64,000 nucleotides of DNA from Amphiura filiformis (lineage: Eukaryota; Echinodermata; Ophiuroidea; Amphilepidida; Amphiuridae): positions 14,794,305-14,858,304 of the forward strand of contig NC_092631.1 in the NCBI RefSeq assembly GCF_039555335.1. The letters run 5' to 3'. The position numbers and the translations under genes are program-made. Below, in pieces: positions 37,701 through 64,000 of the stretch. Within the stretch, counting starts at the first letter, position 1. Each line of letters begins with the position of its first letter. Below the pieces are notes generated by a model. It saw nothing but the letters and a program-made list of their open reading frames with translations. It had not been told where the DNA came from and ran no database searches.

Positions 37701-38376
37701 ACTGCATCTCTACACTGTTTCTGACCAAGCCATTGAAAGAACATCACATCACAAGTACCTGGGAGTTACCATCTCCAGCGATTTAACTTGGAAAAAGCAC
37801 ATTGCAAGTATAACAGCTAAAGCATCCAGCACCCTTGGTGTCATCCGCCGGAACCTTGGACCCTGCTCTAGAAACGTCAAACTACGTGCATACCAGGCTC
37901 TAGTGCGTCCGCAACTTGAGTACGGCACAGCAGCATGGAGTCCGTATGCTGAAGGAGACATCAAACTGTTGGAAGCCATCCAGAGACAAGCAGTGCGATT
38001 CATCTGTGGAGAGTATGGTAGATACACAAGCATTACACCTCTGCTCAGCCAGCTTGACTTGGATCTACTAGCCACCAGACGCTTGATGTCCCAATGTACC
38101 ATGTTCTTTAAAATACATTACCAGCAGATCAACTTACAGTTCCCGCCATGTGTCCAGTTGCATCCTACCTCCGGAAGAAAAAGTCACCATCTCAGATATC
38201 ATCCTGTTCCAGCTGCCAGAGATACTTACAAGTACTCATTTTATGTAAGAACTATACCAATCTGGAATAGGCTACCCCAGGAAGCAGTTGACTCGCCATC
38301 TGTCGCTGTCTTCCAAGCTGTGGCTCTTCCGGTAGTGCGGGATCTCCAACCCACTACCACCCATCATCGCCTCTAA
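34772..38376 (+). mobile_element. LINE-A: CR1/L2-type non-LTR retrotransposon, one frameshift
   Basis: A 957-codon frame (34772-37645) continues after a one-base loss near 37630 in a second frame to 38376. Order by residue: hydrophobic signal-like N-terminus (1-25); 2A-like SGVESNPGP (95-103); PHD-type zinc finger (122-173); AP-type endonuclease (about 250-490, with GDFNFPDIDWD and ISDHDIV); reverse transcriptase (about 690-945, with SGVPQGSVLGP and the catalytic LFADDS); then the C-terminal region with HHKYLGVTIS and ALVRPQLEYGTAAWSP. The ATG has a strong context (AACCATGG). The element is nearly full length and recently dead. Clade assignment within the Jockey/CR1 group is by inspection only. 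Confidence 0.92.
35051..35080 (+). other. 2A-like ribosome-skipping motif in LINE-A
   Basis: Encodes SGVESNPGP after a Leu-rich run. The NPGP core is intact, but the usual Asp of D(V/I)ExNPGP is Gly, so activity is uncertain. Skipping would free a ~102-residue leader from the PHD-EN-RT protein. Confidence 0.75.
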
Positions 38377-39203
38377 AAGAGATGAAGAGGATTTTTACTC
38401 GCACTTTGTATATTTGCACCTACACAACTGCACTTTGTGAAGTCTCCATGGACAAGTTTCAAACTTTCTTGGAGTGAACTGACTGAAGACTGAAGACTGA
38501 AGATTGTAGTACTACCACTACCAGATCACCTGCATGGTTGTCGAATTCGGCATGCATCGTCAACTTGAACTTCACATTTTCAGTGTTTTCACAATCATGC
38601 AATGCTTGCATGAATTTAGCTTACCAGCATTTGAGACAATTTTTTTTGTATATTTCCTGTCGTATGTAATGTACTTCCACACAATTTACATAACTTACAC
38701 AGAAGAATTATTGTCATTCAACTTCTCTTCAAATCTTACGCGATACCGCCTGCCATCAAATATCATGGGTTTATTAACAATTCCTTCTTCAGTAGGTGCA
38801 CTGCAAAATCGGCTGGCAGGCAGGTGTTGCCAGATTATTCTCTTATCTGGTAGTTCCACAGAATTAAAATGTGATCTGGTAGGGTGGTGATGTGCGCATG
38901 TGTAGGGGTAGGACGTACTTCCATCTTCGTCTGGGAGTTTGTGATTTAAATCATCAAAATCCTCCCAAATCCTTTTGATTTGTGAAATCTAAATCAAATT
39001 GTTGTTTTGCATTACTGTTCCGATACCACCTAGAGTGATTTGTATTGTTATAATCATCGAACTTTGTGAGTATTGACATTGTTTTGATAAGCTTATTATA
39101 TATGGTACAGCCAAGATGGCGACTTCAAGAATGACCGGCTAAGGTAAGGCAAGTTGACCGGTTAATGTATTAATTAGTACTGCTGGTGTGGCTAGTCTGA
39201 CCA
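38377..39203. other. LINE-A 3' UTR and LINE-B 5' UTR
   Basis: The boundary between the two elements is not visible. A short GACTGAA tandem lies at 38479-38502. No poly(A) tail is seen, consistent with CR1-type 3' ends. Confidence 0.5.
39112..39124 (+). promoter_or_regulatory. YY1-like site upstream of LINE-B frame
   Basis: GCCAAGATGGCGA matches the AAGATGGCG YY1 consensus, about 160 bases before the probable start ATG. A YY1 site near the 5' end is known for mammalian L1; its role here is inferred. Confidence 0.4.
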
Positions 39204-42200
39204 TTGCCGTTACCAGACCAATCCTACCAAGCTCTCAGCTACCAAGCTCTCAGCTACCAACCTAGTTCCACCATGCAGCCATCGTACTTGTTATTCTCAA
39301 TTGTCATTATCATCAAGGTTAGCTTTTTGGGACATTGTGCTCTACCGATAGGTTTATCCCCTGGTACTTCCTATGACCCCGAATTGTGCCTAAGCCTGGG
39401 TACTGAAGCCCCACACTTGAGATTTTACAAAGGTACACTACAGTTGTTTGGTGTATCATTAGGTACATATGCTGACAACTACAATGAGTATGCAAATCCT
39501 ACAAGCCAAACATGGCACTCAATATCATACATAGAAAGTTCTGTATCAATAATGTTGTACAGAGAAAACATTCTCACCAGAAAGAGTATAATAAGTATCA
39601 GCTTATACAAGCTATCTGTTAACCCAACCAATGAAAGTAAGACTAAGATCACCGTGTCTTACCTGTGTGTTCTTTTGATCGTTAACGCTCATGATATTGA
39701 GCTAAACCCAGGGCCTTACAAGCCCAAGTACCCCTGCCAGCTATGTGATAAAGCTGTGAAATGGGGGCAGCGTGGTATACGATGTGATAACTGCCATGGT
39801 TGGTATCACGTAGATTGTATGAGCATGAATACTTGCAGTTACGAAAGACATGTACTTGACACCTCTGACTCTGTTCAATGGATATGTCATACCTGTGGTC
39901 TACCGAACCACTCATCAGGTCACTTATTTTCTGATAGCTCAACATCATTTGAACTTTCAAATAGCTTTCAGAGTCTAGCTTCTGTAAATGAGGAGAACGA
40001 GCAGCTTGGATCGCCCAAAGCTTCCTCATCCCCACTTAAACCTAAATCAAAGCCAAAAAATAACAAAACAACAAACAGTTCCCTGAGATTCCTTGTCATA
40101 AACTGTCAAAGTGCATATGCAAAAAGGAATCCCTTGCTACATGCATTTATACCCACCAGCCACATGTAGTGATTGGAACAGAGTCATGGCTCGACGATAG
40201 CATTTCCAGCAGTGAAATCTTTCCTAGCAATTTTACCGCCTTTCGTAAGGACAGAGACCCTGGTAAAAGACATGGAGGAGTGTTTGTTGCACTGCGTAAC
40301 GACCTGGTCGGTACTGAACAGATTGAACTTGACACAGAATGCGAAATCATCTGGATCAAACTGGAACTTACTGGGTGCAAGTCGCTCCTGATAGGTTCTT
40401 TCTACCGTCCCCAGATCGTACCGGATAGGAATGATAAGAGTTACCTTGAATGTCTAAGAGAATCACTAGCCAAGATAGATGTGAAAAAAGGAACAACCAT
40501 CTGCCTGGGAGGAGATTTTAACTTGGGCGACATCCTCTGGGACTCTCATACCACCAAGCAAAAATGCAGCAAACCTGGATTGTCACGTCAACTTCTTGAC
40601 ATTGCTGATGAATTCTGCCTACAACAACTTGTGACAGAACCTACGAGAGGGGATAACATCCTCGATCTATTTTTCACATCAAATCAGACATTAGTTGATC
40701 AATCCATGGTGGTCCCCGGCATCAGTGATCACGACGGTATACCGTTGATAGACTTCTCCACTAAACCAAAGATCAACAAAAAGAAACCTAGGAAAGTTTA
40801 CAAGTGGAATAAAATGGATAGTGATGGAATGAAAGCAGACATGAAAAAGATGAGTGATAAATTAACTTCACCAAGTTACTCATCTAAGACTGCGAATGAA
40901 TTGTGGACAGAATTTAAATGTGACATTACAAAAGCAATGGATGACAATATTCCAACTAGAATGAGCACAGGCAAACAACATACGCCATGGATAAATCACT
41001 CAGTCAAGCGCAGACTTAGACAGAAACAAAGAGCCTTCAACCGTGCTAAATCAACTGGTAGAAAAGAGGACTGGCAAAAATTCAGAGAGTTGAGGAAAAT
41101 AGGGCAGAGAGAAACAAGGATATCCTATTGGAACTATGTGAGATCAACATGCTTATCTTCTTCTAAGGAGTTTTGGAGCTTTATCAAGAGGATGAAGAAA
41201 GATTCAACTGGGATACCGGCCCTAAAGAGTGAAGGGCTACTCTACGCTGACAGTAGTAAAAAGGCTGAAATATTAAACAACCAATTTCAGTCGGTGTTCA
41301 CCAACGAGAAGCCACTTAACACTCCAATGAAACAAGACTTCCATCTATGCCACCAATTGACATTAATGTGGATGGAGTCCAAAAGCTTTTGAAAGAGCTA
41401 AATGAGCACAAGGCTTCAGGACCCGATGGAATTCCTTCTAAAATATTGAAGCTCACTGCCGAGGAGATTGCACCTGCACTCTGCTTGATTTTCTCCAAAT
41501 CACTTGAATCGGGTGAATTACCGGACGACTGGCGAACCGCCAACATCTCCCCCGTTTACAAAAAGGGTGACAGGTCTGTTGCGAGTAATTACCGTCCAGT
41601 ATCTCTCACGTCAATATGCTGTAAAACTCTTGAACATATCGTGCACAGTAATATCATGACACACTTGGAACGATATAACATCTTAACGGACAAACAGCAC
41701 GGTTTTCGACAACACCACTCCTGCGAAACGCAGTTGATCCAGACAGTTGACGATCTTGCAGAATCCTTAGATAAGCGATCTCAAGTCGACCTAGTGATTA
41801 TGGACTTTTCTAAGGCATTCGACTGTGTACCCCACCAGCGCCTTTTGTATAAGATCAATAATTATGGCATCACAGGCAATACCTTTAACTGGATCTCTAA
41901 TTTTCTGACAAAGCGGAATCAGAGAGTTGTTGTTGATGGAGATACATCCTCTTGGGTACCGGTTAAGTCAGGAGTGCCCCAGGGCACTGTCTTAGGTCCG
42001 CTGCTATTTCTCTTGTATCTGAACGATTTGCCGAACAACATCAAATCCAACGTGAGACTGTTCGCGGATGATTGTGTGATGTACAACACCATAAAGAATC
42101 AATCGGATGCACAACAACTGCAAGACGATTTGAACACATTGTCCATGTGGCAGGATCTGTGGCAAATGAGCTTCAATGCCGACAAGTGTTTTGTTCTTAG

Positions 42201-42882
42201 GCTCACACATGCAAAAACTCCCAAACAACATCAATACACATTAGGAAACAAAATCTTACAAAACACATCATCTCACTCATATCTTGGTGTCGAAATAACA
42301 TCTGATCTCAAGTGGGGGAATCACATCCAATCTAAAGTGGCTAAGGCCAATAGGGCCCTGGGATTTATTAGGCGTAATCTATATTCATGTCCAAAGGACC
42401 TGAAAGCTACTGCTTACCAGACTTTAGTACGACCCCACTTAGAATATTCATCTACCATCTGGGACCCACACACCCAAGATTTGAAAGACCAGCTAGAAAA
42501 GATCCAAAGAAGAGCGGTAAGATTTGTCTGCAATGATTTCCGCCGCACAAGCAGCGTTACAGCAATGTTGAATGCCCTTCAATGGGATACACTGGAAACC
42601 AGACGGAAAGCAGCCCGACTGTCCATGTTCCATAAAATCCATCACGGTCAGACTGCCATACCGGCAGGAAAATTCTTACAACCGGTCACACGCCTCTCCA
42701 GACACAATCACAGCGAATCCTACAAGCTGAAGACATCCAACAAGGACTGTCACAAGTTTTCATTCTTTCCGCAAACAATAAAAGACTGGAACAACCTACC
42801 ACAAAGCATAGTAACCATCCACGATAATAAGCAATTCAAATCAGCAACCACAGCACATCTAAGCAAGCAGCAAAAGGACTAA
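39204..42882 (+). mobile_element. LINE-B: CR1/L2-type non-LTR retrotransposon, two frameshifts
   Basis: Three successive frames (39204-40169, 40169-41392, 41347-42882) make one broken polyprotein, with frame changes near 40145 and 41338. Order: probable start Met at 39273 followed by a hydrophobic signal-like segment; 2A-like HDIELNPGP; PHD finger with CxxC/HxxxC ligands; AP endonuclease (ESWLDDSI, GGDFNLGDI, GISDHDG); reverse transcriptase (SGVPQGTVLGP, LFADDCVMY); C-terminal region (YLGVEITSDLKW, LEYSSTIWDP). Same architecture as LINE-A but clearly a different lineage. It lies head-to-tail with LINE-A. Confidence 0.92.
39690..39716 (+). other. 2A-like ribosome-skipping motif in LINE-B
   Basis: Encodes DIELNPGP preceded by a hydrophobic stretch, a canonical D(V/I)ExNPGP. 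The cleavage point would fall between Gly and Pro just before the PHD finger. Confidence 0.85.
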
Positions 42883-48149: not shown

Positions 48150-48815
48150 TCAAGATATTGTCTACTGCAACTGATGTCGGAATGGTAGATGCAGCGGTTG
48201 TGTCCACGAGCAAGCTTCCGTCCATACACAAATGCTGAGTTTTTGTTTTGAGTAGATCACCAAAAACACCGTTCTTGTAAAACAACAGTGGAGATGGTTG
48301 CTGCATTGATTGAGGGATAGAATACAACTGCAGCTGATGTTTTAGGATAGGTAGATGTAGCTGTTATTCCTTTATGTTGTGTCAACATATATATGAAGGC
48401 TCCGTTCAGACCTTAAAAGCTGAGTTGCGTGTTTTGAGCAGGTCAACAACCAAACTATTCTTGTTTAACAACATTGGAGTTGGTTGATTGCAGCGAAGAA
48501 GAAAATTCTACATGCAGCTATTGTTGCATGAATGGTATATATGCAGTTGTTCTCCAGATGTTGCGTCAACAAACTAGGCAATGGGCTCCGTTCAGAGGGA
48601 AAAAACTGAGCTCAATGTTTTAAGCAGGTGACCAAGGGGCGAGATTTGTTTGTAAAACAACAGGTGGAGTTGGTTGCCCGTGGTTGGCTGCAGTGAGGAA
48701 GAGAATTCCACTGCAGCTGATGTTCTAGGTATGGTAGATGCAGATGTTGCGTCAGCAAGCTGAGTAGGGGCCAACGTCCAGACACAAAAAGCTGAGTTTT
48801 TATTTGAGCAGATTT
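48150..48815 (-). repeat. ~188-bp tandem repeat, four copies, unit A
   Basis: Anchor blocks (TTCCGTCCATAC, CTCCGTTCAGAC, CTCCGTTCAGAG, CAACGTCCAGAC) lie at 48211, 48399, 48587 and 48771, giving periods of 188, 188 and 184 bp. It lies immediately 3' of the SNTX/GTPase tail. Minus-strand translations of single units look protein-like (ASTIPRTSAAVEF, NQLHLLFYK) but frames are interrupted. Confidence 0.85.
48799..48804 (-). terminator. Candidate poly(A) signal, unit A gene
   Basis: Minus-strand AATAAA about 12 bases past the stop codon at 48816. Confidence 0.45.
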
Positions 48816-49410
48816 TCACAGCGGCTGGAATGTTCTTTTATGGTCATCGTGCTTGTTGTGACAATGATTGACTTGTTCATTCTTCTGATGTGAATTATGG
48901 CACATTTTGTCGAATGGGAGCGGTCTTCTTTTGAATGCAATGTTGTTTGCTGATATTGAGATAGAACATCCATGAAAAAGATCCTTCAATGTTTTGCCCA
49001 TATGTTTAAGACGAAAGAGCTCTTCTTGAAGCTTCATAACCTCTGGGGTATGTATGTTTTCACCAGTGTTTTCCGCAATTGCGTTATCCAAGATCCTCCT
49101 TTCTTGTTCGTACTGGCTCTTCATACGTTGCATTTTGTCCAGAAGTGGCTCATTTCTGATTTCTTTTGCTTTGTTTCTCTCATGTTGAATGGACAAGTCT
49201 AGGCAGTCTGCAACTGCGTCATTGTAGGGTATGGTAGCATTTGCTTTGAGGAAAGAGACATATTTGGCGCTGGTTTTCATGATGATTCGTTGCTCTTCCG
49301 CCAATTCTCTACTTTTGTTATCAATTGCTTCTTTGAAAGCCTCCTTTGCTTCTTTGGCGCTTATCTTTTGATCGATTTGTGCTTGAACTTCATCAGATAG
49401 GAATTGTGTT
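48816..49410 (-). pseudogene. Unit A: frameshifted C-terminal coiled-coil tail
   Basis: Continues the large exon in another frame after a 28-nt gap relative to unit B (at about 49415). Encodes a Lys/Glu-rich coiled coil beginning ATQFLSDEVQAQ, a second helical segment with MKLQEELFRLKHMGKTL, and a His-rich end. The tail itself is intact and about 95 residues longer than the one in unit B, whose tail is frameshifted. Confidence 0.85.
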
Positions 49411-52318
49411 GCAAGTGAGTGGTGTAATGGTGTCCGCAATGTACACAATAATTATTCCTACCTATGCACGCACAACGTTGCAATCTAGAGTCGTTTGTTG
49501 TTTCTGTTGGAATTCCACTCACACAATGGCAATAGTGGTGACATATTTGGTCGTATAACGCGTTCTGAACGCGACTTTTACCAACTTGAACATATCTGAT
49601 ACAGTTGGAATGTGCACAGATCGTTCTGGGATATGGTAACGGAACGTTCCTAATGCCAAATCCATTGACCTTTAGATTGGCTTTTAAACTATCCATATCC
49701 TTGTCGTACAGATCAATTTGCATTTTGGCTTCGATGCCACTTTGAACATTCTGTTGGATTGTTTTGGCTATTTTTGCTAAGATTTTGCTCAAAGCCACGA
49801 TGATTCTTCGGACCTCGTTGATATTCAAAGTATTCCTTACTCTGTGCGGTCTCAATGCGCTGATATGCTCGATGAAGCGTTTTGTCTCTTCAACAGACTT
49901 GTTCCAGCTTTCAGCATAAGTATTTATGTCTTCTTGACTGAATATAACTCCATTCTTTAAACAAGCCAAAAAGCGAAAAGCCTCGTTGTCAAAGCAGAAG
50001 TAGTTGTGTGGGGTAGCTTTAATCCCGACCTTTCTTTTGTCAAGCTCTTTATTGAGGACACGCAAAGTGTCACCAGGTTGGTAGAATGTTGCTCGAGTAT
50101 TTGTGAAGCAGAATACAATGTTGTCTTTGGCCGATGAATGCAGATGAGCCAAGAGCTCTTGGATACAGAAGCGGAACATTGCTGTAAGACGGGAGTTATT
50201 CGGCTTGAGAAGTATGCACACAGCATGGATCTCTTGGTAGTAAGTCAGGTATGACAGTATGTTGTCAAAGTTTTTCTTGTCTTGTTCTATACCTTCACTG
50301 TCCCCAACTCCTGGCGTATCAATCAAACGAATTATCTGATCACCGACATGAAAGACGTAGGAACGAGGCTTTTTGGTAGCAGATTTTCCAACTTCCATGT
50401 TCTCATTGGTGTCAGCTTCGCCAATCAATATCTCCTTTTCCTCTCCTTGTTGTGTGAATGTAAAACGTGATGGTATCAGAACACGGAACTCCCTAGAATT
50501 GATAGCTTCTTCAATATCAGCGAAGTAATTGTAGTTGATAAAACCATTGATCCATGTAGATTTGCCAACTCCTGTCTCGCCGAGGATCAATATGTTTTTC
50601 TCCTGCATTGCTCTTTGCCGAGACAACTCATCAGCTAGAATATCATCTGGATACTTGACATAATCCATGCCGTGATCCTTCTCATTGCAGCGAAAGTGTG
50701 ATTTTTTCGGATTCGATTTTCCACATTTGCAGTAAAACAGTTTGGTTTCTATGCCATATTCAACCACATGTTTGCATTTGGAACACATCCAGATGACTGG
50801 GCTACCTGTACATTCACCATTTCCGGACAAAGCATTTGGGCATCTTAGCTTGACACGTGCTCGGTTGCTTGGGCGTATTTGTTCGAAAACCGGCCTATCA
50901 AATTTGATCAGACACATTTCTGAGTCCTGGCCTTCTTTGGCATACAGGTCCATTGATGTTAATCTGCCGTCTATAAACGTGTGAACGCTTGCCTTCTCTT
51001 TGCCAGCTGGCCAAATATCCATTCTTATTTCTTGGTCTACAATAATGAATTTATAGTTTCTCTTCTCTGCATACGTTTTCTGTAGTCGCAAAAAGAACTC
51101 TTGATTTTTATCATGATTATCCTTGTCATCTTCGTTGGCAGTCTTGTAGAACACATAGACGTTTCTTCTATCATCCAAAACCGGACTGTCTTTTCTTCCG
51201 ACGTAGATGATTCCTTTGCTCTTCCATGATTTGATAGATTTTACTTTGTTGAAATCTGTTTGAAATCCCCGAATTTGATCGTTGTACTTTGAGATGAAAG
51301 ATGTGTCAGACATTTCGTTAGTAAGGAATGCTTCAAGAGAAGAAACGTCTTCAGCCCACGATCTTACTTTCTTTACCAACTTTTGAAGCCTAGTTTTGAA
51401 ACCAGATTCTTCCACAACAAACTTCCCCAAAATATCATCAATTCTAACGAGAGATCCTTCTGCGACATAGTCTGCACATACATGCAGATCTCTATGAATA
51501 GCATAGAGTGTTTGCCTCTTCTTCGTGATTCCTTCCACGACCTGTGCACACTTCTTGATGATATGGTCATCGATTGCTCTATATTGTGTTTGAATCTGCA
51601 CTTGAAGCCTACACATCTTGACGATAGCATCCAGTGGCATCAACATGTAGGTCAACGGAACCACCTTCCCGTTGTTTGTGCCCATAACGAGACTTGGGAG
51701 ATTTCTTGCTAGCTCCACCGCACCTTCGAATGTAACCGGGAGGTCTTTGTCAGGAGCTGTAACATCTGCTTTGCATTTGTAGGTGAACTTTTTGTGACTT
51801 TCCTTGTTTTTATCATCATACGCTGCTTTATCAGATCCTTTGTCATCAATTAGCGCTTTCAGCTTTTCAAGCTCAGCACTCAGAGCTCCTTTGACTTCGG
51901 TGACATCTTCATCTTCTTCGTTTTCGTATTCACAGGTAACCGAGCAAGATGCTCCCCAATCAATGGCAACAACAACATGAGTTGCATTGACGAGCTGTCC
52001 ATTCGAAGGTGACAGAATGTTCATGTCGATCTTATCCTTATTCTGGCGAATCATTACCTCTTCATTGACTGTTCTCAAGTTGTAAAGTAGACTCATTCTT
52101 TGGGCCCTATCGCTTTTTCTTTCCTCTTCAAAATATGACCCTGATCCGTTCAACTTGACGAGGCCTGCCAACAAACTCGCCTGAAGCTCTGTTTCTACTT
52201 CAAGTTTGTTGAACTTCTCTTGTAAGGTGTCTGTCAATACAAGTTCCATTGAAGTATTCCTAATTTCCACGGTGTCGACAGCTTCGTCACCCAGCTTTGA
52301 GCCAAATAGAGTATCGCC
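49361..52318 (-). pseudogene. Unit A: SNTX-like/GTPase large exon, frame-broken
   Basis: Acceptor TTTTCAG at 52319, then the same domain order as the unit B exon: SNTX/MACPF-like start, FAT-like helices, thioredoxin-like region, Cys-rich knuckle, GTPase (GETGVGKST, DTPGVGDSEG, FTNTR), Cys/His module. A 28-nt deletion near 49415 shifts frame and gives a stop at 49361 with a short unrelated end. The preceding exon donor is also out of phase with this acceptor. With no 5' exon in the unit, I call it a pseudogene, although fragments could still be spliced into transcripts. Confidence 0.8.
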
Positions 52319-52785
52319 CTGAAAATGAATCAACATCAATTCTTTTAGAAAGAAAGAAAAAGAAAAAAAAAAAAGAGTGGAGCATTTGGGAATTTATATT
52401 ATTTAACACAGTAAATCATGATCCATTGATAAATTGCTGAAACACAGACAGTGATACAATACGTACCAAAATACGAGTTATTCAAAGACGCTATTCATTT
52501 AGATATCAGCCTAATAGAGAAAACAACAAAAACATGCCTTCCTTTCATACCTTTCTAAAAATGATATTTCAGCCTACGACAACCATGACAACAGTGTATA
52601 TGTTACTATCACCTGTTGGGCTTAAAGGCACACTTCATCAAATGTTATATAAGGATAATCAGATTTTGCTAAATAATGTGCCCTCCCTATAAGCATCCAC
52701 TAATAAGCAGCTCTAACTAGCGCATCTCTATACAGCGATACTTCCGAGGCCCTCAGCTATGATGCAAGAACTACCAAGAACTTAC

Positions 52786-53350
52786 CAAAAACTGTCTGTT
52801 CTGATGTCATAGAGAGTTCCAATCTTGACCACTCTCCCCAGCGCTGCCCTCTGTTTGCGGCTCCCGGCTTGGTTCCGTGCTGCAGTAGCCGCTGCTGCCG
52901 CAACCGCTGGCGGGATCTCAGGATCGTAGATGAGACGTATGTCGATGTCGACTTGTTTGCTGAATCTCCTTTCATACCGGCAATAGTTGACAAAATGCTC
53001 ACAATTATTTGAATAGACGTTGTAACGGGGCCAATTATCCTTATATGTCTGAATGCGCCTTTTTACGTCAAGGCTGGTTGGCATGGTGTCTGGCGTGAAG
53101 TAGATATTGTCGTCGAAGTTGTTGATTCTTGCTTCTGAAGTTCCAATCGTTTCGTAAAGGTCGCTCTCTTGAATTTTGACATTTATTGATAGGCCTACAT
53201 GGGCGATGGCGAAATGGATAACTTTATTGTTGCCGATGTACAACGCCCAATGCTGATAATAGCCCCGAAAGCGGTCTATCTCAATTCGATCCCCGTAAGT
53301 TGGGTCAAGCTTTCCGTCTTTGCTTGGTTTTACCCAGTCTGTTACCAAAC
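52786..53350 (-). pseudogene. Unit A: LRAT exon 2 plus SNTX start, donor out of phase
   Basis: Acceptor AATTAG at 53351, donor TTTTTG|GTAAGT at 52785. Encodes an LRAT/NlpC-P60-type domain with HWALYIG, VIHFA and NNCEHFV (His, His, Cys catalytic set kept), an Ala-rich linker, then the LGR..LYDIR start of the SNTX-like domain. The T run before the donor is one base shorter than in unit B, so the exon is 565 nt and ends in phase 2 while the next exon needs phase 0. Confidence 0.85.
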
Positions 53351-53934
53351 CTAATTGAAGGAAAAAAGAAGAAGTGAACAGTTGATGAAAGGAGCTTGAA
53401 ATCCGGGCTTGAAATATGTCAGGTATCCACATTTAGTGCTTTGCGTACTAGCCAATAGGCTTCAACATAATAAGTCCAAGTAATGAGATATATTTTCTCA
53501 AAATATCAATTTAACGCATTTTTCATGCTGGTTCCAAATCATACAAGTGCACAATTCTGACATTTTTGAATGTTCAACACCCAGCCCTGATAGCGGTTTA
53601 TCTCAATCAAAATATTGGCAATCACTTCCAAATAATAATGGGCGTTGACATTTGGTTACTGGGCATATAGCGAAAATAGGTAAACTTAGCTCCGTTTGGT
53701 ATAATGGTATGATAACTTAAAAGTGCAATATCTTCAGATTAAAACCAATCACTTATTTTCTAAATTAAAAATGTCTACTTACACCGGACATTTATCACTG
53801 CTTTCTTGGATATTTTATTTGCTGATGTACAATCTCCGCAAAGATATGAAAACATTTGGCGAATTTGGGGTACAGTCCTTTATTTTTTTAATCACCCCAT
53901 ACGGTCCGATAGTACTAGTCCTAAGGACCGCTAG

Positions 53935-54075
53935 TCTAAAGTTCGCTGAATTTATACTCGATCGCCGAGCGATTGCGATGTACCGCTTTTGGTAAGCGAT
54001 GGCCAATCGCCGAATTTTGCGATGCATCGCTCGTCGCTTTTGCAATTATACTTATCACATCGATCATGGCGAGCA
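53935..54075. repeat. GCGAT-rich palindromic cluster, unit A intron
   Basis: Repeated GCGAT/ATCGC words in opposite orientations (TCGCCGAGCGATTGCGATG, AAGCGATGGCCAATCGC, GCGATGCATCGC) between the two LRAT exons. Also at 61945-62095 in unit B. Confidence 0.65.
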
Positions 54076-54601
54076 GACGACAATTAAAATGCTCTAAACG
54101 CCACAAAATACATTTCAGAACATCCATTGCTCTCAATAATTATTGTTTTGAATTAACTCATCCTCGAAAGTTAAAAATCGAGAAAGAGAAATTAATTAGC
54201 AAAATAATAGATCCAGTTGGTTGGAAATGATTGGTTGATGCATTCACGTCAGTGTTAATTGTCAAGCGACACCACTGATCACTGGGAAGTTGAGATTTCT
54301 TCAACTCACAAAAGCAAATTGCCTCAGCGAATTGAATCGACTGATCGGCTCGACCCTCTGGAAATGTAGCTATACCATAATACTCTGAACATGCGTGAGA
54401 ATCGATTTTCTGCACAAGCGAAAACCATTTTTGGACCAGTGGACCCTTTTCTACTAAATGGGAGTACTGTTGAAATGGCACCATAAGCATGATAAGCATA
54501 GATTAAAAACATTATTCGCGTATTACTCTGCCAAATACATTATGACAACTTTAGTCCGTAGTCCGAGTGAACTGAAATCTCCAACACTAATAGAAACTTA
54601 C

Positions 54602-55009
54602 CGTAGTGTCCCAGTTTGCAGAATCTCTTTTCATACCGGCAATAGTTGACCAAATGCTCACAATTATTTAAATCGACGTTGTAACGGGGCCAATTATCCT
54701 TATATGTCTGAATACGCCTTTTTACGTCAAGGCTGATTGGCATGGAGTTTGGCGTAAAAAATTTCTTGTCGTCGGAGTTGTTGATTCTTGCTTCTGAAGT
54801 TCCAATCGTTTCGTAAAGGTCGCTTTCTCTAATTTCCACTTCTGTTGATTTGGTGTTGGGGGTAGTGGCGAAATGAAGGACTTTGTTGTTGCCGATGTAC
54901 AACGCCCAGTGCTGATCTTTGCCCTGATAGCGGTTCATCTCAATTCGATCACCGTAAGTCGGGTTAAGCTTTTTGCCTTTCCATGCTTCTACCCAGTCCG
55001 TTACCAAAC
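54602..55009 (-). pseudogene. Unit A: LRAT cassette exon 1
   Basis: 408 nt, acceptor TTAATTAG at 55010, donor CTACG|GTAAGT at 54601. Encodes one complete LRAT-type domain (about 136 residues) with HWALYIG (His33), LHFA (His45) and NNCEHLV (Cys116). The frame is intact. It is labelled pseudogene only because unit A lacks an upstream exon and has lesions further 3'. Confidence 0.75.
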
Positions 55010-55299
55010 CTAATTAAAAACAAAAATAAGTCAACAATTATTTTTCACACAGTGACGTTAACTAGGCAATGCCCATATACCTATAACATGGACAGTAACT
55101 GCAGTATGAAACGTAAATTTACTCTACTTTATTTGTCTGTGTAACTCTATTTTTTTCTTATAATTTCATGAATAGTCAAAATGACATGCAACATCAGGAT
55201 ATTACGTATATTTATATACTGCATGTAGCTCTACCGGTTCATATATTTTCACGAATGATTCAAAATGACATGCAATTATACATCAAGATATTGTCTACT

Positions 55300-55520
55300 G
55301 CAACTGATGTCGGAATGGTAGATGCAGCGGTTGTGTCCACGAGCAAAGGCTTCCGTCCATACACAAATGCTGAGTTTTTGTTTTGAGTAGATCACCAAAA
55401 ACACTGTTCTTGTAAAAAGTGGAGATGGTTGCTGCATTGATTGAGGGATAGAATACAACTGCAGCTGATGTTTTAGGATAGGTAGATGTAGCTGTTATTC
55501 CCTTATGTTCTGTCAACATA
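55300..55520 (-). repeat. 188-bp repeat, first copy in unit B
   Basis: Matches 48160-48380. The array is split here from its other copies by the inserted element at 55521. Confidence 0.8.
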
Positions 55521-56369
55521 CAGCCTGTCTCAAAAAAAATTGTGCATGTGAAAAGCGCCCTCTCTGGCAATTAGAAAATACCGTTGTGACATAATGCTTA
55601 CATCAACGTCAATGGCGTAGTCTTAGCTCGCCAATGCCGTTAGTTCTGTTCAATTTGCTTGTTTTAATCTCGAGATATGTTTAGTTAAAGCCGAAAGAGT
55701 GCAATCACAATTGTGCCACTTTTACTAGGGAAGAGTGCTTTACATGTAACATTGATAGCATCAAGTTTATCAAGAGTTCCTTCGTGAAATCAAAAGAATG
55801 CATCAATTACATGATACAAATTTGTTTGACTGTTTTTACTGTTTTATCATGATGCAGGAATGATGATTCTCTTTTGCCACTTAAAAGAGATTAAAAGATA
55901 AATAAATATTTCACATTCTGCTGTAAAACTTAAATACATGTGCATGTCAATGATTTTATCATGGTAAATACTGTTCTCTTAGTCGCTTAAGACATGTTAA
56001 AAGATAGGTTAATGAACGCGTATTACTTGTTGGGAGAGATATTAGACAAAATAGTGCACGCGTGCTGATGTTGATGCGTCTAATGCATGCGCCCCGAAAG
56101 GGGAGTGCATTAGACGCATCAACATCAGCTATCATTGATTTACATGTACAGCTCTCTTCCCTAGTAAAAGTGGCACAATTGTGATTTTACCCTTTCGTTG
56201 TTAAATAAACATATCTCGAAATTGGAACAAGCTAATTGAACAGAACAAACGGCATTTGAGAGCTAATACTACGCCCGTGACGTTGATGTAAGCATTATTT
56301 CACAACGGTATTTTCTAATTGCCAAAGAGGGCGCTTTTCACTTGCACAATTTTTTTTTGAGACAGGCTG
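55521..56369. mobile_element. 849-bp mariner-type foldback, private to unit B
   Basis: Ends CAGCCTGTCTCAAAAAAAAT and ATTTTTTTTTGAGACAGGCTG are inverted, with arms of about 230 bp. TA flanks both ends (55519-55520, 56370-56371). The empty site in unit A reads CAACATATATATGAAG at 48374-48389. A related copy of the 23537-23731 palindrome is nested in the centre (about 56008-56130). Confidence 0.92.
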
Positions 56370-56790
56370 TATATATGAAGGCTCCGTTCAGACCTTTAAA
56401 AGCTGAGTTCCGTGTTTTGAGCAGGTCAACAACCAAACTATTCTTGTTTAACAACATTGGAGTTGGTTGCAGCGAAGAAGAAAATTCTACATGCATCTAT
56501 TGTTGCAGGAATTGTATATGCAGTTGTTCTCCAGATGTTGCGTCAACAAACTAGGCAGTGGGCTCCGTTCAGAGGGAAAAAACTGAGCTCAATGTTTTAA
56601 GCAGGTGACCAAGGGGCGAGATTTGTTTGTAAAACAACAGGTGGAGTTGGTTGCCCGTGGTTGGCTGCAGTGAGGAAGAGAATTCCACTGCAGCTGATGT
56701 TCTAGGTATGGTAGATGCAGATGTTGCGTCAGCAAGCTGAGTAGGGGCCAACGTCCAGACACAAAAAGCTGAGTTTTTTATTTGAGCAGA
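56370..56790 (-). repeat. 188-bp repeat, remaining copies in unit B
   Basis: Anchors CTCCGTTCAGAC (56382), CTCCGTTCAGAG (56564) and CAACGTCCAGAC (56748) continue the array after the insertion. Confidence 0.82.
56777..56782 (-). terminator. Candidate poly(A) signal, unit B gene
   Basis: Minus-strand AATAAA at the position equivalent to that in unit A. Confidence 0.45.
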
Positions 56791-56872
56791 TTTTCACAGC
56801 GGCTGGAATGTTCTTTTATGGTCATCGTGCTTGTCGTGACAATGATTGACTTGTTCATTCTTCTGATGTGAA

Positions 56873-57177
56873 TTATGGCACATTTTGTCGAATGGGAGCG
56901 GTCTTCTCTTTGAATGCAATGTTGTTTGCTGATATTGAGATAGAACATCCATGAAAAAGATCCTTCAATGTTTTGCCCATATGTTTAAGACGAAAGAGCT
57001 CTTCTTGAAGCTTCATAACCTCTGGGGTATGTATGTTTTCACCAGTGTTTTCCGCAATTGCGTTATCCAAGATCCTCCTTTCTTGTTCGTACTGGCTCTT
57101 CATACGTTGCATTTTGTCCAGAAGTGGCTCATTTCTGATTTCTTTTGCTTTGTTTCTCTCATGTTGAATGGACAAGT
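56873..57177 (-). pseudogene. Unit B: stranded C-terminal tail after frameshift
   Basis: A two-base gain near 57205 relative to unit A ends the main frame at 57178. The next ~100 codons (SIQHERNKAKEIRNEPLLDK and the MKLQEELFRLKHMG helix) are still open in another frame, and a further one-base gain near 56909 alters the end. These codons are probably untranslated. Confidence 0.8.
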
Positions 57178-60100
57178 CTAGGCAGTCTGCAACTGCGTCA
57201 TTGTTGTAGGTATGGTAGCATTTGCTTTGAGGAAAGAGACATATTTGGCGCTGGTTTTCATGATGATTCGTTGCTCTTCCGCCAATTCTCTACTTTTGTT
57301 ATCAATTGCTTCTTTGAAAGCCTCCTTTGCTTCTTTGGCGCTTATCTTTTGATCGATTTGTGCTTGAACTTCATCAGATAGGAATTGTGTTGCAAATACC
57401 TCTGTGCTACATGTGATGTGCATGTGAGTGGTGTAATGGTGTCCGCAATGTACACAATAATTATTCCTACCTATGCACGCACAACGTTGCAATCTAGAGT
57501 CGTTTGTTGTTTCTGTTGGAATTCCACTCACACAATGGCAATAGTGGTGACATATTTGGTCGTATAACGCGTTCTGAACGCGACTTTTACCAACTTGAAC
57601 ATATCTGATACAGTTGGAATGTGCACAGATCGTTCTGGGATATGGTAACGGAACGTTCCTAATGCCAAATCCATTGACCTTTAGATTGGCTTTTAAACTA
57701 TCCATATCCTTGTCGTACAGATCAATTTGCATTTTGGCTTCGATGCCACTTTGAACATTCTGTTGGATTGTTTTGGCTATTTTTGCTAAGATTTTGCTCA
57801 AAGCCACGATGATTCTTCGGACCTCGTTGATATTCAAAGTATTCCTTACTCTGTGCGGTCTCAATGCGCTGATATGCTCGATGAAGCGTTTCGTCTCTTC
57901 AACAGACTTGTTCCAGCTTTCAGCATAAGTATTTATGTCTTCTTGACTGAATATAACTCCATTCTTTAAACAAGCCAAAAAGCGAAAAGCCTCGTTGTCA
58001 AAGCAGAAGTAGTTGTGTGGGGTAGCTTTAATCCCGACCTTTCTTTTGTCAAGCTCTTTATTGAGGACACGCAAAGTGTCACCAGGTTGGTAGAATGTTG
58101 CTCGAGTATTTGTGAAGCAGAATACAATGTTGTCTTTGGCCGATGAATGCAGATGAGCCAAAAGCTCTTGGATACAGAAGCGGAACATTGCTGTAAGACG
58201 GGAGTTATTCGGCTTGAGAAGTATGCACACAGCATGGATCTCTTGGTAGTAAGTCAGGTATGACAGTATGTTGTCAAAGTTTTTCTTGTCTTGTTCTATA
58301 CCTTCACTGTCCCCAACTCCTGGCGTATCAATCAAACGAATTATCTGATCACCGACATGAAAGACGTAGGAACGAGGCTTTTTGGTAGCAGATTTTCCAA
58401 CTTCCATGTTCTCATTGGTGTCAGCTTCGCCAATCAATATCTCCTTTTCCTCTCCTTGTTGTGTGAATGTAAAACGTGATGGTATCAGAACACGGAACTC
58501 CCTAGAATTGATAGCTTCTTCAATATCAGCGAAGTAATTGTAGTTGATAAAACCATTGATCCATGTAGATTTGCCAACTCCTGTCTCACCGAGGATCAAT
58601 ATGTTTTTTTTTGCATTTTCCCTAAGCCGAGACAACTCATCAGCTAGAATATCATCTGGATACTTGACATAATCCATGCCGTGATCCTTCTCATTGCAGC
58701 GAAAGAGTGATTTTTTAGGATCCGATTCTCCGCATTTGCAGTAAAGGAGTTTGGTTTCTATGCCACATTCAACCACCTGTTTGCATTTGGAACACATCCA
58801 GATGACTGGGTTACCTGTACATTCACCATTTCCGGACAAAGCATTTGGACATCTTAGCTTGACACGTGCTCGGTTGCTTGGGCGTATTTGTCGGTAGACC
58901 GGCCTATCAAATTTGATCAAACACATTTCTGAGTCTTGGCCTTCTTTGGCATACAGGTCCATTGATGTTAATCTGCCGTCTATAAACGTATGAACGCTTG
59001 CCTTCACTTTGCCAGCTGGCCAAAGATCCTTTCTTATTTCTTGGTCTACAATAATAAATTTATAGTTTCTATCATCATGTGCATGCGTTTTCTGTAGTCG
59101 CAAAAACAACTCTTGATTTTTGTCATGGTTATTCTTGTCACCTTCATCGGCAGTCTTGTAGAACACATAGACGTTTCTCCTGTCATCCAAAGCTGGATTA
59201 TCCTTTCTACCAACGTAGATGATTCCTTTGCCCTTCCATGATTTGATTGATTTTAGTTTTATGAAATCCTTTTGAAATCCCCGAATTTCATCGTTGTACT
59301 TTGAGACAACACATCTTTCAGACATGTCGTTAGTAAGGAATGCTTCAAGAGAAGACACGTCTTCAGCCCACGATCTTACTTTCTTTACCAACTTTTGAAG
59401 CCTTGCCTTGAAACCAGATTCTTCCACAACAAACTTCTCCAATATATCATCAATTCTAACGAGAGATCCTTCTGCGACATAGTCTGCACAGACATGTAGA
59501 TCTCTATGAATATCATAGAGCGTTTGCCTCTTCTTCGTGATTCCTTCCACGACCTGTGCACACTTCTTGATGATGTCCTCATCGATTGCTCTATATTGTG
59601 ATTGAATCTGTACTTGATGAAGCCTACACATCTTGACGATGGCATCCAGTGGCATCAACATGTAGGTCAACGGAACCCCCTTCCCGTTGTTTGTGCCCTT
59701 AACGAGACTTGGGAGATTTCTTGCTAGCTCCACCGCACCTTCGAATGTAACCGGGAGGTCTTTGTCAGGAGCTGTAACATCTGCTTTGCATTTGTAGGTG
59801 AACTTTTTGTGACTTTCCTTGTTTTTATCATCATACGCTGCTTTATCAGATCCTTTGACATCAATTAGCGCTTTCAGCTTTTCAAGGTCAGCACTCAGAG
59901 CTCCTTTGACTTCGGTGACATCTTCATCTTCTTCGTTTTCGTATTCACAGGTAACCGAGCAAACTGCTCCCCAATCAATGGCAACAACAACATGAGTTGC
60001 ATTGACGAGCTGTCCATTCGAAGGTGACAGAATGTTCATGTCGATCTTATCCTTATTCTGGCGAATCATTACCTCTTCATTGACTGTTCTCAAGTTGTAA

Positions 60101-60333
60101 AGTAGACTCATTCTTTGGGCCCTAGCGCTTTTTCTTTCCTCTTCAAAATATGACCCTGGTCCGTTCAACTTGACGAGGCCTGCCAACAAACTCGCCTGAA
60201 GCTCTGTTTCTACTTCAAGTTTGTTGAACTTCTCTTGTAAGGTGTCTGTCAATACAAGTTCTATTGAAGTATTCCTAATTTCCACGGTGTCGACAGCTTC
60301 GTCACCCAGCTTTGAGCCAAATAGAGTATCGCC
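57178..60333 (-). CDS. Unit B: SNTX-like/thioredoxin-like/GTPase large exon
   Basis: Acceptor TTTTCAG at 60334; 1051 codons plus stop. By residue from the exon start: remainder of a stonustoxin-like, MACPF-related domain (1-235, GDTLFGSKLG to LMPLDAIVK); helical FAT-like region (240-365); thioredoxin-like region without a CxxC pair (370-475); Cys knuckle (495-546); TRAFAC-type GTPase closest to AIG1/septin-like folds (577-790) with P-loop GETGVGKST, switch II DTPGVGD and TNTR in the G4 position; helical stalk (800-890); Cys/His module (903-966); coiled coil (985-1030). In-frame splicing from the LRAT exon completes the SNTX N-terminus. Likely cytosolic and membrane-acting; the function is inferred. 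The C-terminus is shortened by a frameshift relative to unit A. Confidence 0.85.
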   Translation of the reverse strand, partial: GDTLFGSKLGDEAVDTVEIRNTSIELVLTDTLQEKFNKLEVETELQASLLAGLVKLNGPGSYFEEERKSARAQRMSLLYNLRTVNEEVMIRQNKDKIDMNILSPSNGQLVNATHVVVAIDWGAVCSVTCEYENEEDEDVTEVKGALSADLEKLKALIDVKGSDKAAYDDKNKESHKKFTYKCKADVTAPDKDLPVTFEGAVELARNLPSLVKGTNNGKGVPLTYMLMPLDAIVKMCRLHQVQIQSQYRAIDEDIIKKCAQVVEGITKKRQTLYDIHRDLHVCADYVAEGSLVRIDDILEKFVVEESGFKARLQKLVKKVRSWAEDVSSLEAFLTNDMSERCVVSKYNDEIRGFQKDFIKLKSIKSWKGKGIIYVGRKDNPALDDRRNVYVFYKTADEGDKNNHDKNQELFLRLQKTHAHDDRNYKFIIVDQEIRKDLWPAGKVKASVHTFIDGRLTSMDLYAKEGQDSEMCLIKFDRPVYRQIRPSNRARVKLRCPNALSGNGECTGNPVIWMCSKCKQVVECGIETKLLYCKCGESDPKKSLFRCNEKDHGMDYVKYPDDILADELSRLRENAKKNILILGETGVGKSTWINGFINYNYFADIEEAINSREFRVLIPSRFTFTQQGEEKEILIGEADTNENMEVGKSATKKPRSYVFHVGDQIIRLIDTPGVGDSEGIEQDKKNFDNILSYLTYYQEIHAVCILLKPNNSRLTAMFRFCIQELLAHLHSSAKDNIVFCFTNTRATFYQPGDTLRVLNKELDKRKVGIKATPHNYFCFDNEAFRFLACLKNGVIFSQEDINTYAESWNKSVEETKRFIEHISALRPHRVRNTLNINEVRRIIVALSKILAKIAKTIQQNVQSGIEAKMQIDLYDKDMDSLKANLKVNGFGIRNVPLPYPRTICAHSNCIRYVQVGKSRVQNALYDQICHHYCHCVSGIPTETTNDSRLQRCACIGRNNYCVHCGHHYTTHMHITCSTEVFATQFLSDEVQAQIDQKISAKEAKEAFKEAIDNKSRELAEEQRIIMKTSAKYVSFLKANATIPTTMTQLQTA

Positions 60334-60804
60334 CTGAAAATGAATCAACATCAATTCTTTTAGAAAGAAAGAAAAAGAAAAGAAAAAAAAGAGTGGAGCA
60401 TTTGGGAATTTATATTATTTAACACAGTAAATCATGATCCATTGATAAATTGCTGAAACACAGACAGTGATACAATACGTACCAAAATACGAGTTATTCA
60501 AAGACGCTATTCATTTAGATATCAGCCTAATAGAGAAAACAACAAAAACATGCCTTCCTTTCATACTTTTCTAAAAATGATATTTCAGCCTACGACAACC
60601 ATGACAACAGTGATGTTACTATCACCTGTTGGGCTTAAAGGCACACTTCATCAAATGTTATATAAGGATAATCAGATTTTGCTAAATAATGTGCCCTCCC
60701 TATAAGTATAAGCATCCACTAATAAGCAGCTCTAACTAGCGCATCTCTATACAGCGATACTTCCGAGGCCCTCAGCTATGATGCAAGAACTACAAAGAAC
60801 TTAC

Positions 60805-61370
60805 CAAAAAACTGTCTGTTCTGATGTCATATAGAGCTCCAATCTTGGCCACTCTCCCCAGCGCTGCCCTCTGTTTGCGGCTCCCGGCTTTGTTCCGTGC
60901 TGCAGTAGCCGCTGCTGCCGCAACCGCTGGCGGGATCTCAGGATCGTAGATGAGACGTATGTCGATGTCGACTTGTTTGCTGAATCGCTTTTCATACCGG
61001 CAATAGTTGACAAAATGCTCACAATTATTTGAATAGACGTTGTAACTGGGCCAATTATCCTTATATGTCTGAATACGTCGTTTTACGTCAAGGCTGGTTG
61101 GCATGGTGTCATGCGTAAAGAATTCCATATCGTCGAAGTTGTTGATTCTTGCTTCTGAAGTTCCAATCGTTTCGTAAAGGTCGCTCTCTTTAATTTTGAC
61201 AGCTATTGACAGGCCTACATTGGCGATGGCGAAATGGACGACTTTATTGTTGCCGATGTACACCGCCCAATGCTGATAATAGCCCAGAAAGCGGTCTATC
61301 TCAATTCGGTCACCGTAAGTTAGGTCAAGCTTTTCGCCTTTGCTAGGTTTTACCCAGTCTGTTACCAAAC
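60805..61370 (-). CDS. Unit B: LRAT exon 2 plus SNTX start
   Basis: 566 nt, acceptor AATTAG at 61371, donor TTTTTTG|GTAAGT at 60804; enters in phase 1 and leaves in phase 0, matching the large exon. Residues 1-130 form an LRAT/PLAAT-type papain-like domain with His33 (HWAVYIG), His45 (VHFA) and Cys116 (NNCEHFV). LRAT-family enzymes transfer or hydrolyse acyl groups of phospholipids or retinol at membranes. Residues 148-166 are an Ala/Arg-rich linker, and 168-188 (ALGRVAKIGALYDIR) are the recognisable start of the SNTX-like domain, which shows this exon is spliced to the large exon. Confidence 0.88.
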
Positions 61371-61944
61371 CTAATTGAAAAAAAGAAGAAGAAGTTAACA
61401 GTTGATGAAAGGAGCTTGAAATATGCCAGGTACCCACATTTAATGCTTTACGTGCTATAGGCTTCAACATAATAAGTCCAAGTTTTGAAATATATTTTCT
61501 CAAAATATCAATTTAACGCATTTTTCATGTTGGTTCCAAATCGCATATGCAAGTGCACAATTCTGACATTTTTGAATGTTCAACGCCCCTGATAGCGGTT
61601 TATCTCAATCAAAATATTGGCAATCACTTCCAAATAATAATGGGCGTTGACATTTGGTTACTGGGCATATAGCGAAAATAGGTAAACTTAGCTCCGTTTG
61701 GTATAATGGTATGATAACTTAAAAGTGCAATATCTTCAGATTAAAACCAATCACTTATTTTCTAAATTAAAATGTCTACTTACACCGGACATTTATCACT
61801 GCTTTCTTGGATATTTTATTTGCTGATGTACAATCTCCGCAAAGATATGAAAACATTTGACGAATTTGGGGGTACAGTCCTTTATTTTTTTTAATCACCC
61901 CATACGGTCCGATAGTACTAGTCCTAAGGACCGCTAGTCTAAAG

Positions 61945-62095
61945 TTCGCTGAATTTATACTCGATCGCCGAGCGATTGCGATGTACCGCTTTTGGTAAGC
62001 GATGGCCAATCGCCGAATTTTGCGATGCATCGCTCGTCGCTTTTGCAATTATACTTATCACATCGATCATGGCGATAGCGATTGCAGACGACAAT
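61945..62095. repeat. GCGAT-rich palindromic cluster, unit B intron
   Basis: Same cluster as 53935-54075, with a few extra bases (GGCGATAGCGATTGC) at the right edge. Confidence 0.65.
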
Positions 62096-62709
62096 TAAAA
62101 TGCTCTAAACGCCACAAAATACATTTCAGAACATCCATTGCTCTCAATAATAATTGTTTTGAATTAACTCATCCTCGAAAGTTAAAAATCGAGAAAGAGA
62201 AATAATTAGCAAAATAATAGATCCAGTTGGTTGGAAATGATTGGTTGATGCATTCACGTCAGTGTCAATTGTCAAGCGACACCACTGATCACTGGGAAGT
62301 TGAGATTTCTTCCCGGGATTTCTTCAACTCGCAAAAGCAAATTGCCTCAGCGAATTGAATCGACTGATCGGCTCGACCCTCTGGAAATGTAGCTATACTC
62401 TGAACATGCGTGACAATCGATTTTCTGCACAAGTGATCAAGTATAAATTCGGCTTAACTCTGATTTCTAAACCTAACCCCAATTTTCGGAGTAGATATTG
62501 TGAACCCTTTCTATTTTTCAGACTAGCGAAAACCATTTTTGGACCAGTGGACCCTTTTCTACTAAATGGGAGTACCGTACTGTTGAAATGGCACCATAAG
62601 CATGATAAGCATAGATTAAAAACATTATTCGTGTATTACTTTGCCAAATACATACACTTTAGCCCGTAGTCCGAGTGAACTGAAATCTCCAACACTAATA
62701 GAAACTTAC

Positions 62710-63117
62710 CATAGTGTCCCAGGTGGCAGAATCTCTTTTCATAACGGCAATAGTTGACCAAATGCTCACAATTATTTAAATCGACGTTGTAATCGGGCCA
62801 ATTATCCTTATATGTCTGAATACGCCTTTTTACGTCAAGGCTGATTGGCATGGAGTTTGGCGTAAAGAATTTCTTGTCGTCGGAGTTGTTGATTCTTGCT
62901 TCTGAAGTTCCAATCGTTTCATAAAGGTCGCTTTCTCTAATGTCCACTTCTGTTGATTTGGTGTTGGGGGTAGTGGCGAAATGGAGGACTTTGTTGTTGC
63001 CGATGTACAACGCCCAGTGCTGATCTTTGCCCTGATAGCGGTTCATCTCAATTCGATCACCGTAAGTCGGGTTAAGCTTTTTGCCTTTCCATGCTTCTAC
63101 CCAGTCCGTTACCAAAC
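62710..63117 (-). CDS. Unit B: LRAT cassette exon 1
   Basis: 408 nt, acceptor TTAATTAG at 63118, donor CTATG|GTAAGT at 62709, phase 1 at both ends. It can therefore be included or skipped without changing frame, and splices in frame to LRAT exon 2. One complete LRAT-type domain with His33, His45 and Cys116 retained. It differs from LRAT exon 2 at many positions (for example QGKDQHWALY against LGYYQHWAVY), so the two domains are old paralogues. No start codon; the 5' exon lies beyond 63135 or outside the window. Confidence 0.85.
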
Positions 63118-63135
63118 CTAATTAAAAACAAAAGT

Positions 63136-63424
63136 AAGTTAATTATGCAAGGTATCCATTGCTCATTGACTACGGGGCGGACGGAATTTCAGTCATACGA
63201 CGATAGTCATTAGACTCTGTAAGCATGGCAGGGCAAGCGTTAACACAAGGTTTAGAACTTTGTCACCGTGGTAAGAAAGGTCTGGAACAAAATTCGGCAG
63301 CCAATGAGATGATAACGTTTAGGGAATATAATTTAGAATTACGGTTTTGATTTAGGCAGAGTGTTACAAAATAGTACGGTTATGATTTTGGATTAGGGTT
63401 ACGTTTCGGATTAGAAAGTAAAAA
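63136..63424. other. Intron or flank upstream of unit B
   Basis: No exon recognised. The missing first exon, which must end in phase 1, is not identifiable here. Confidence 0.4.
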
Positions 63425-64000
63425 ATATGTTATGTTTTATATTATCGTGCTGTGTTTTAGTGGCGATTCCCTGCTGTGTTTGGAAACACAGCACTCAAAC
63501 ACAGAACTATAACATAAAACACAAGAATGAAAACATTACGTGCTTTGTTTGCAAACACAGCACTCAAACACAGCACTGTAACATGAAACATAAGAATTTA
63601 GAGATTTATGTTTTATATTATAGTACCGTGTTTGATTGCTGTGTTTGCAAACACAGCATGGATTTTTTCATTCTATGTTTAATATTATAGTGCTGTGTTT
63701 GAGTGCTGTTTCCAAACACAGCAGGTTTTTTTTATTCTTATGTTTTATATTATAGTGCTGTGTTTGACTGTTGTTTTTCCAAACACAGCAGGGAATCAGC
63801 ACTCAAACACAGCACTCTAATATAAAACATAAAAATTAAAAAAATTCCGTGCTGTGTTTGCAAACACAGCACTCAAACACAACACTATAATATAAAACAT
63901 AAGAATGAAAAAAAAAACCTGCTGTGTTTGGAAACACAGCAATCAAACACAACACTATAATATAAAACATAAGAATGACAAATTCCATGCTGTGTTTGCA
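63425..64000. repeat. Palindromic satellite-like array
   Basis: The 20-bp perfect palindrome GCTGTGTTTGCAAACACAGC or a close variant recurs about seven times, joined by ACTCAAACACAGCACTATAA and TATAAAACATAAGAATGAAA spacers (or their reverse complements). Units alternate orientation, so long stretches are self-complementary. The array continues past the window. Confidence 0.92.

Follow-up and report, generated by a model that had tools for sequence, protein, structure and literature searches.

Stonustoxin (structure 4wvm), a protein of venom, ends in a PRYSPRY domain (PMC10566576), and the human PLAATs are small and putatively membrane-spanning at their C-terminal end (PMC9338259). Coral GiMAPs are small, are described without C-terminal extensions and respond to microbial material, three of their genes being up more than 50-fold after a bacterial cell-wall fragment; the conserved box of the GIMAP proteins is located between G3 and G4 (PMC3723955). 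Here we describe a gene of the brittle star Amphiura filiformis that brings relatives of all of these together, found in a 64,000-nucleotide stretch of contig NC_092631.1 (the window; all positions refer to it). This gene, unit B, has two PLAAT-like LRAT exons ahead of a large exon encoding most of a stonustoxin-type (SNTX) MACPF domain, FAT-like and thioredoxin-like regions and a GTPase of the GIMAP/Toc34 type (Table 1). In the Amphiura protein Cys-rich segments and the GTPase stand where stonustoxin has its PRYSPRY, and the end of the fused LRAT domain continues into SNTX, in contrast to the ending of the human PLAATs.

The gene fusion between the second LRAT domain and SNTX was confirmed at the level of sequence, so far in this one species, other brittle stars lying outside the search. 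The link is independent of any guessed splice, because LRAT exon 2 by itself encodes a full LRAT domain followed in frame by positions 2-26 of the SNTX profile. When alone, this short match at the exon end is below threshold (14.6 bits against the Pfam cut-off of 27, E 0.019); the large exon covers profile positions 23-275 with 65.6 bits (E 5.6e-18), and the two parts joined score 94.2 bits over positions 2-275 (cut-off 27, E 1.1e-26). The same join is made in P0001, an uncharacterized NCBI/UniRef protein of 1159 amino acids from A. filiformis, which connects exon 2 to the large exon between DSFL and GDTLF and which the large exon matches from residue 107 onward with 100% identity. The initial annotation, made from the letters of the sequence, had proposed this fusion, the division of SNTX across the last intron and a single reading frame through exons of phase 1/1 and 1/0 and an exon of 1051 codons. 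All three are borne out by the profile matches and by the coordinates, phases and AG/GTAAG sites read from the sequence, the splice sites of unit B being GTAAG donors and AG acceptors that follow a T-rich tract. Profile searches, which it had named as a check, detected both LRAT and SNTX similarity (Table 1).

Relatives of the protein were collected by scoring 8000 candidates, of which 295 matched at E<=1e-3 and 120 were listed; length limits omit longer and shorter proteins. The end of exon 2, RAALGRVAKIGALYDIRTDSF, resembles the usual N-terminus of this family. Its motif ALGR..LGxLYD is present in 56 of the 120 matches listed, P0001 included. Of the other 55, all but P0086 (residue 255) have it beginning at residue 5-48. 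Among the matches listed, LRAT sequence in front of the motif is found in P0001 only. No PF04970 (LRAT) accession occurs among the 120, and the motif NC[EA][HK]F is absent from the 119 others. Phmmer with exon 1 matched one listed relative, P0001, and with exon 2 matched 33, the LRAT part being significantly aligned in P0001 alone. Residues 1-110 of P0001 as query likewise returned P0001 alone among 266 candidates, and thus no further LRAT fusion. In a tree of 48 sequences P0001, P0003 and P0009, all of them Amphiura paralogs, form one group (support 0.995). P0003 and P0009 show no LRAT, so that within this search the LRAT gain looks recent, unless it was lost in these two.

From SNTX onward the domain order is identical to that of proteins combining SNTX-MACPF, DUF7656 (PF24676), an AIG1-like GTPase and PF26633, which we take to be DUF8206 (P0002, P0003, P0013 and others). 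Among the matches listed, those from sea stars and from Amphiura that align to 84% or more of the large exon share 66-74% identity with it; in the 119 listed besides P0001 no LRAT front end was detected. PF24674 (SNTX-MACPF) is carried by 109 of the 120, and 92 also have PF01926 or PF04548 (GTPase). Carriers of both domains include sea stars, sea urchins, an octocoral, nematodes and the fungi Rhizophagus, Glomus, Ambispora and Entomortierella; for sea cucumber P0013 and tardigrade P0108 no GTPase accession is given. The initial annotation had regarded the whole domain order as unfamiliar. This stands for the LRAT front end, seen in one of the 120, and its heading overstated the novelty of the SNTX and GTPase combination. 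Judged from these matches, that combination is old, widespread and already in databases, and within the searches made what is new is the front end, an LRAT of the PLAAT type. Our literature searches found no published name for the SNTX-MACPF/DUF7656/GTPase/PF26633 proteins and nothing pairing an LRAT domain with MACPF; judged from titles and abstract openings, no paper among those listed describes the fusion.

Two aspects of the family tree stand apart from the fusion. The octocoral Dendronephthya proteins P0024 and P0026 group with echinoderm proteins (support 0.959), apart from the group of P0072 and P0074, and transfer, contamination or old paralogs are alternative explanations. The grouping of nematode with fungal relatives has a support of just 0.23. 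Nematode AIG1-like genes, which may or may not belong to the SNTX-GTPase family, have been proposed to derive from a root-associated fungus (PMC6872716).

The window holds the unit twice. Tandem copy A (48388-55034) is 95.5% identical to 56370-62436 and 95.6% identical to 62515-63142. The Pfam LRAT scores of unit B are 54.3 bits for exon 1 and 70.8 bits for exon 2 (cut-off 24.3), and a His-His-Cys triad (H33, H45, C116) is invariant in all four LRAT exons of both copies, in the same columns as in PLAATs; we take these residues to be the catalytic His, His and Cys. The likeness to PLAAT2 and PLAAT3 extends to the motifs GDxIE, HWA and NCEH together with the second His. Exon 2 matches the PLAAT2 structure 4dpz (E 4.4e-12), and its AlphaFold2 model has a predicted local distance difference test score (pLDDT) of 73-96 over residues 1-130. 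The assignment of an LRAT fold thus rests on Pfam and PDB sequence matches and on model confidence. The nearest LRAT match is a stand-alone PLAAT2-like Amphiura protein, P0121, at 56% identity. A C-terminal hydrophobic anchor like that of human PLAATs is not seen in the fused LRAT: the highest 19-residue hydropathy of exon 2 is 1.22 and lies within the LRAT core, and no segment in the LRAT exons or the large exon is as hydrophobic as the C-termini of P0122 (2.65) and the fish PLAAT P0126 (1.93). SNTX could substitute for the anchor.

The FAT and thioredoxin-like parts, which the initial annotation had predicted to follow SNTX, are recognised by structure; Pfam Stonustoxin_helical is unmatched in P0001. 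Residues 83-572 of the P0001 model match stonustoxin chain 4wvm_B up to chain residue 506. Foldseek of the model lists perforin-like chains, and a second fold list (VIA), filled by GTPase matches, has no MACPF protein other than stonustoxin. Ahead of the GTPase, residues C603, C622, C625, C640, C642, C654 and H659 of P0001 are invariant across 48 sequences, from which we infer zinc binding by this segment. The predicted AIG1-like GTPase, with its P-loop at P0001 residue 690 and DTPG at 777, was recovered by Pfam AIG1 (E 6.3e-07, 29.4 bits, cut-off 27), and its nearest folds are Toc34 and GIMAP. It differs from these in that MMR_HSR1, also above its cut-off (E 2.7e-07), scores slightly higher than AIG1, and in being placed within a large protein between Cys/His segments. 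Such flanking segments were missing from the initial annotation, whose main domains are otherwise upheld; the early frame break of copy B, treated below, had also escaped it.

Since, of the solved structures, only stonustoxin is strongly related in sequence to the N-terminal part, one might think of a secreted pore-forming toxin like that of stonefish venom. We consider this very improbable: the GTPase occupies the place of the stonustoxin PRYSPRY, no PRY/SPRY family is among the Pfam matches at E<=1, and the same two domains are present in relatives from soil fungi and nematodes.

Given the gene anatomy, domain homologies, intact LRAT triads and selective constraint established here, the explanation that we favour, and regard as rather probable, is a fusion of a PLAAT-type LRAT to an SNTX-FAT-thioredoxin-GTPase protein acting as a GTPase-switched, membrane-docking phospholipid modifier. 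The protein would be intracellular and deliver a phospholipase/acyltransferase, probably in defence. The initial annotation had proposed a similar GTP-controlled effector, with a possible part in innate defence or vesicle handling. A PLAAT-type LRAT gene would have been fused ahead of the old SNTX-FAT-thioredoxin-GTPase gene, which placed LRAT and the SNTX start in a single exon; duplication of the LRAT exon and later of the entire unit would have followed, presumably in that order. The SNTX-FAT-thioredoxin part may dock on or insert into membranes, the Toc34/GIMAP-like GTPase may time self-assembly, and the LRAT module would there cut or transfer phospholipid acyl chains, destabilising the membrane. 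Likely targets would be damaged or invaded internal membranes. When a PLAAT3 piece is artificially recruited to the surface of an organelle, the organelle is deformed and ruptured (PMC9338259), and AIG-type GTPases have been discussed as fused components of invader-response systems (PMC8195603, PMC7159879). A bolder version, which we hold to be unlikely, is a GTP-gated membrane-destroying machine in which two tandem PLAATs sit on a perforin-like docking module that replaces their anchor, and GTPase assembly on a damaged or microbe-containing membrane triggers local phospholipid breakdown. Such a machine, if real, would be nature's equivalent of the PLAATs that have been engineered to be recruited to organelles and rupture them.

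The fusion joins a lipid-cutting enzyme to a perforin-related GTPase family spanning animals and soil fungi, a description of whose job was not found in the literature searches. The fused enzyme is a clue to what the whole family acts on, namely membranes, probably damaged or invaded ones, and the function can be tested directly in an echinoderm that regenerates and has transcriptomes available (PMC11310086).

A number of observations, given in this and the following two paragraphs, count against the favoured explanation. The exon joining is so far known from genomic sequence and a public protein model. The stand-alone P0121 has Asn at the second His position, kept as His in the fused copies, and it too is without a C-terminal hydrophobic segment (0.65), so an anchor was not necessarily lost from the fused LRAT. 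P0001 begins within exon 2 (MEFFTHD), which leaves exon 1 and the first half of the second LRAT domain outside it and deprives it of both LRAT histidines, so that this model backs the join and neither a complete LRAT domain nor exon 1. A start exon (ATG, phase 1, GTRAG donor) has no candidate in 55030-56370 or 63138-64000, and the first 25 residues of P0121, used as a tblastn query, matched only at E 1.2 or worse. The duplicated unit starts only about 25 bases upstream of LRAT exon 1; the start-codon exon is therefore outside it and may lie beyond base 64000. Taken together with the LRAT remnant of P0001, which at 23.6 bits falls under the cut-off of 24.3, and with the pLDDT below 50 for its residues 1-66, the missing start exon would fit a working protein that is P0001 as it stands, its LRAT being a non-catalytic stub before an ordinary SNTX-GTPase protein. 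That appears unlikely to us, as each of the four LRAT exons has an open frame and the whole triad, dN/dS (the ratio of nonsynonymous to synonymous rates) is below one between the units, and a pyrimidine-rich AG acceptor is in front of exon 2 in both.

A narrower form of the favoured explanation, overlapping with it, has exon 2 alone in use and exon 1 as an unused or alternative duplicate, giving an LRAT-SNTX-GTPase protein with a single LRAT. The start of the duplicated unit so close to exon 1 and the absence of exon 1 from the annotated P0001 make this a possibility to be taken seriously, even though exon 1, of phase 1/1, precedes exon 2 without changing the frame and has the lowest dN/dS of the three exons, 0.23 between units A and B. 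For exon 2 and the large exon the ratio is 0.45 and 0.37, and in one-sided Fisher tests on rounded counts values below one have p 0.028 (exon 1), 0.023 (exon 2) and 6e-06 (large exon). The SNTX part alone has a ratio of 1.39 on 12 changes. When the two LRAT exons are compared with each other the ratio is 0.59 and 0.66, which is not significant (p 0.07 and 0.11).

The divergence between the copies is patchy, and this weakens the dN/dS argument. It amounts to 0.43% in intron 2 and 6.2% in exon 2, reaches 17/150 in the FAT/thioredoxin part and is near zero over most of the GTPase and the C-terminal region; exons diverge more than introns, in blocks (48388-55034 against 56370-63142), which suggests gene conversion with an unseen further paralog as one explanation. 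Both copies also have frame problems, two in copy A (exon 2 junction out of phase, break near 49.41 kb) and one in copy B, near 57.20 kb. The helical tail of the relatives (106-108 aligned residues in five of them, 57202-56882) is off-frame in copy B, which thus ends early. The breaks may be sequence errors or real. If real, they and the patchiness could mark both units as decaying members of a multigene family from which no important protein is made; the large-exon ratio of 0.37 and the opening of copy B over 1051 codons with P-loop and DTPG render this quite improbable, and we retain the LRAT-SNTX-GTPase fusion as the preferred explanation.

Table 1. Features of units A and B in the window.
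Feature	Position	Strand	Evidence
Unit B LRAT exon 1, phase 1/1: complete LRAT domain	62710-63117	-	Pfam LRAT 2.1e-14, profile 3-118 of 120; His-His-Cys triad in alignment
Unit B LRAT exon 2, phase 1/0: LRAT domain, linker and SNTX beginning	60805-61370	-	Pfam LRAT 1.6e-19; MACPF_SNTX profile 2-26
Unit B large exon, phase 0, 1051 codons and stop	57178-60333	-	100% identity to P0001
Remainder of SNTX-type MACPF/CDC-like domain	59629-60333	-	Pfam 5.6e-18; 4wvm_A 1.5e-17
Helical FAT-like region (P0001 residues 360-476)	59230-59580	-	
Thioredoxin-like region (P0001 480-577), DUF7656 in relatives, without CxxC	58927-59220	-	Structural match to 4wvm_B
Cys-rich, zinc-ribbon-like segment N-terminal to GTPase	58663-58860	-	Invariant Cys/His across 48 sequences
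GTPase domain, Toc34/GIMAP/septin group; P-loop GETGVGKS, DTPG	57814-58629	-	
Cys/His-rich C-terminal segment, probably PF26633	57415-57633	-	Placement inferred; PF26633 precomputed for P0001 and its relatives, without coordinates
Helical tail of relatives, frame differs from copy B large exon	56882-57202	-	tblastn, five relatives
Unit A LRAT exon 1	54602-55009	-	
Unit A LRAT exon 2; large-exon junction out of phase	52786-53350	-	
Unit A large exon region, frame broken near 49.41 kb	49199-52318	-	

Elsewhere in the window, the segment just upstream of copy B (63430-64000) contains a block of repeats, 65-70 bases long and both inverted and tandem, that include palindrome-like pieces of the type TGCTGTGTTTG..CAAACACAGCA. 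Two retrotransposons of the long interspersed nuclear element type, with PHD finger, endonuclease and reverse transcriptase, are on the + strand at 34760-38376 and 39201-42882; the second is spread over three frames and its PHD match is under the Pfam cut-off. On the - strand, 16782-16841 gives a weak tRNA match (30.3 bits against the Rfam cut-off of 29, E 0.026).

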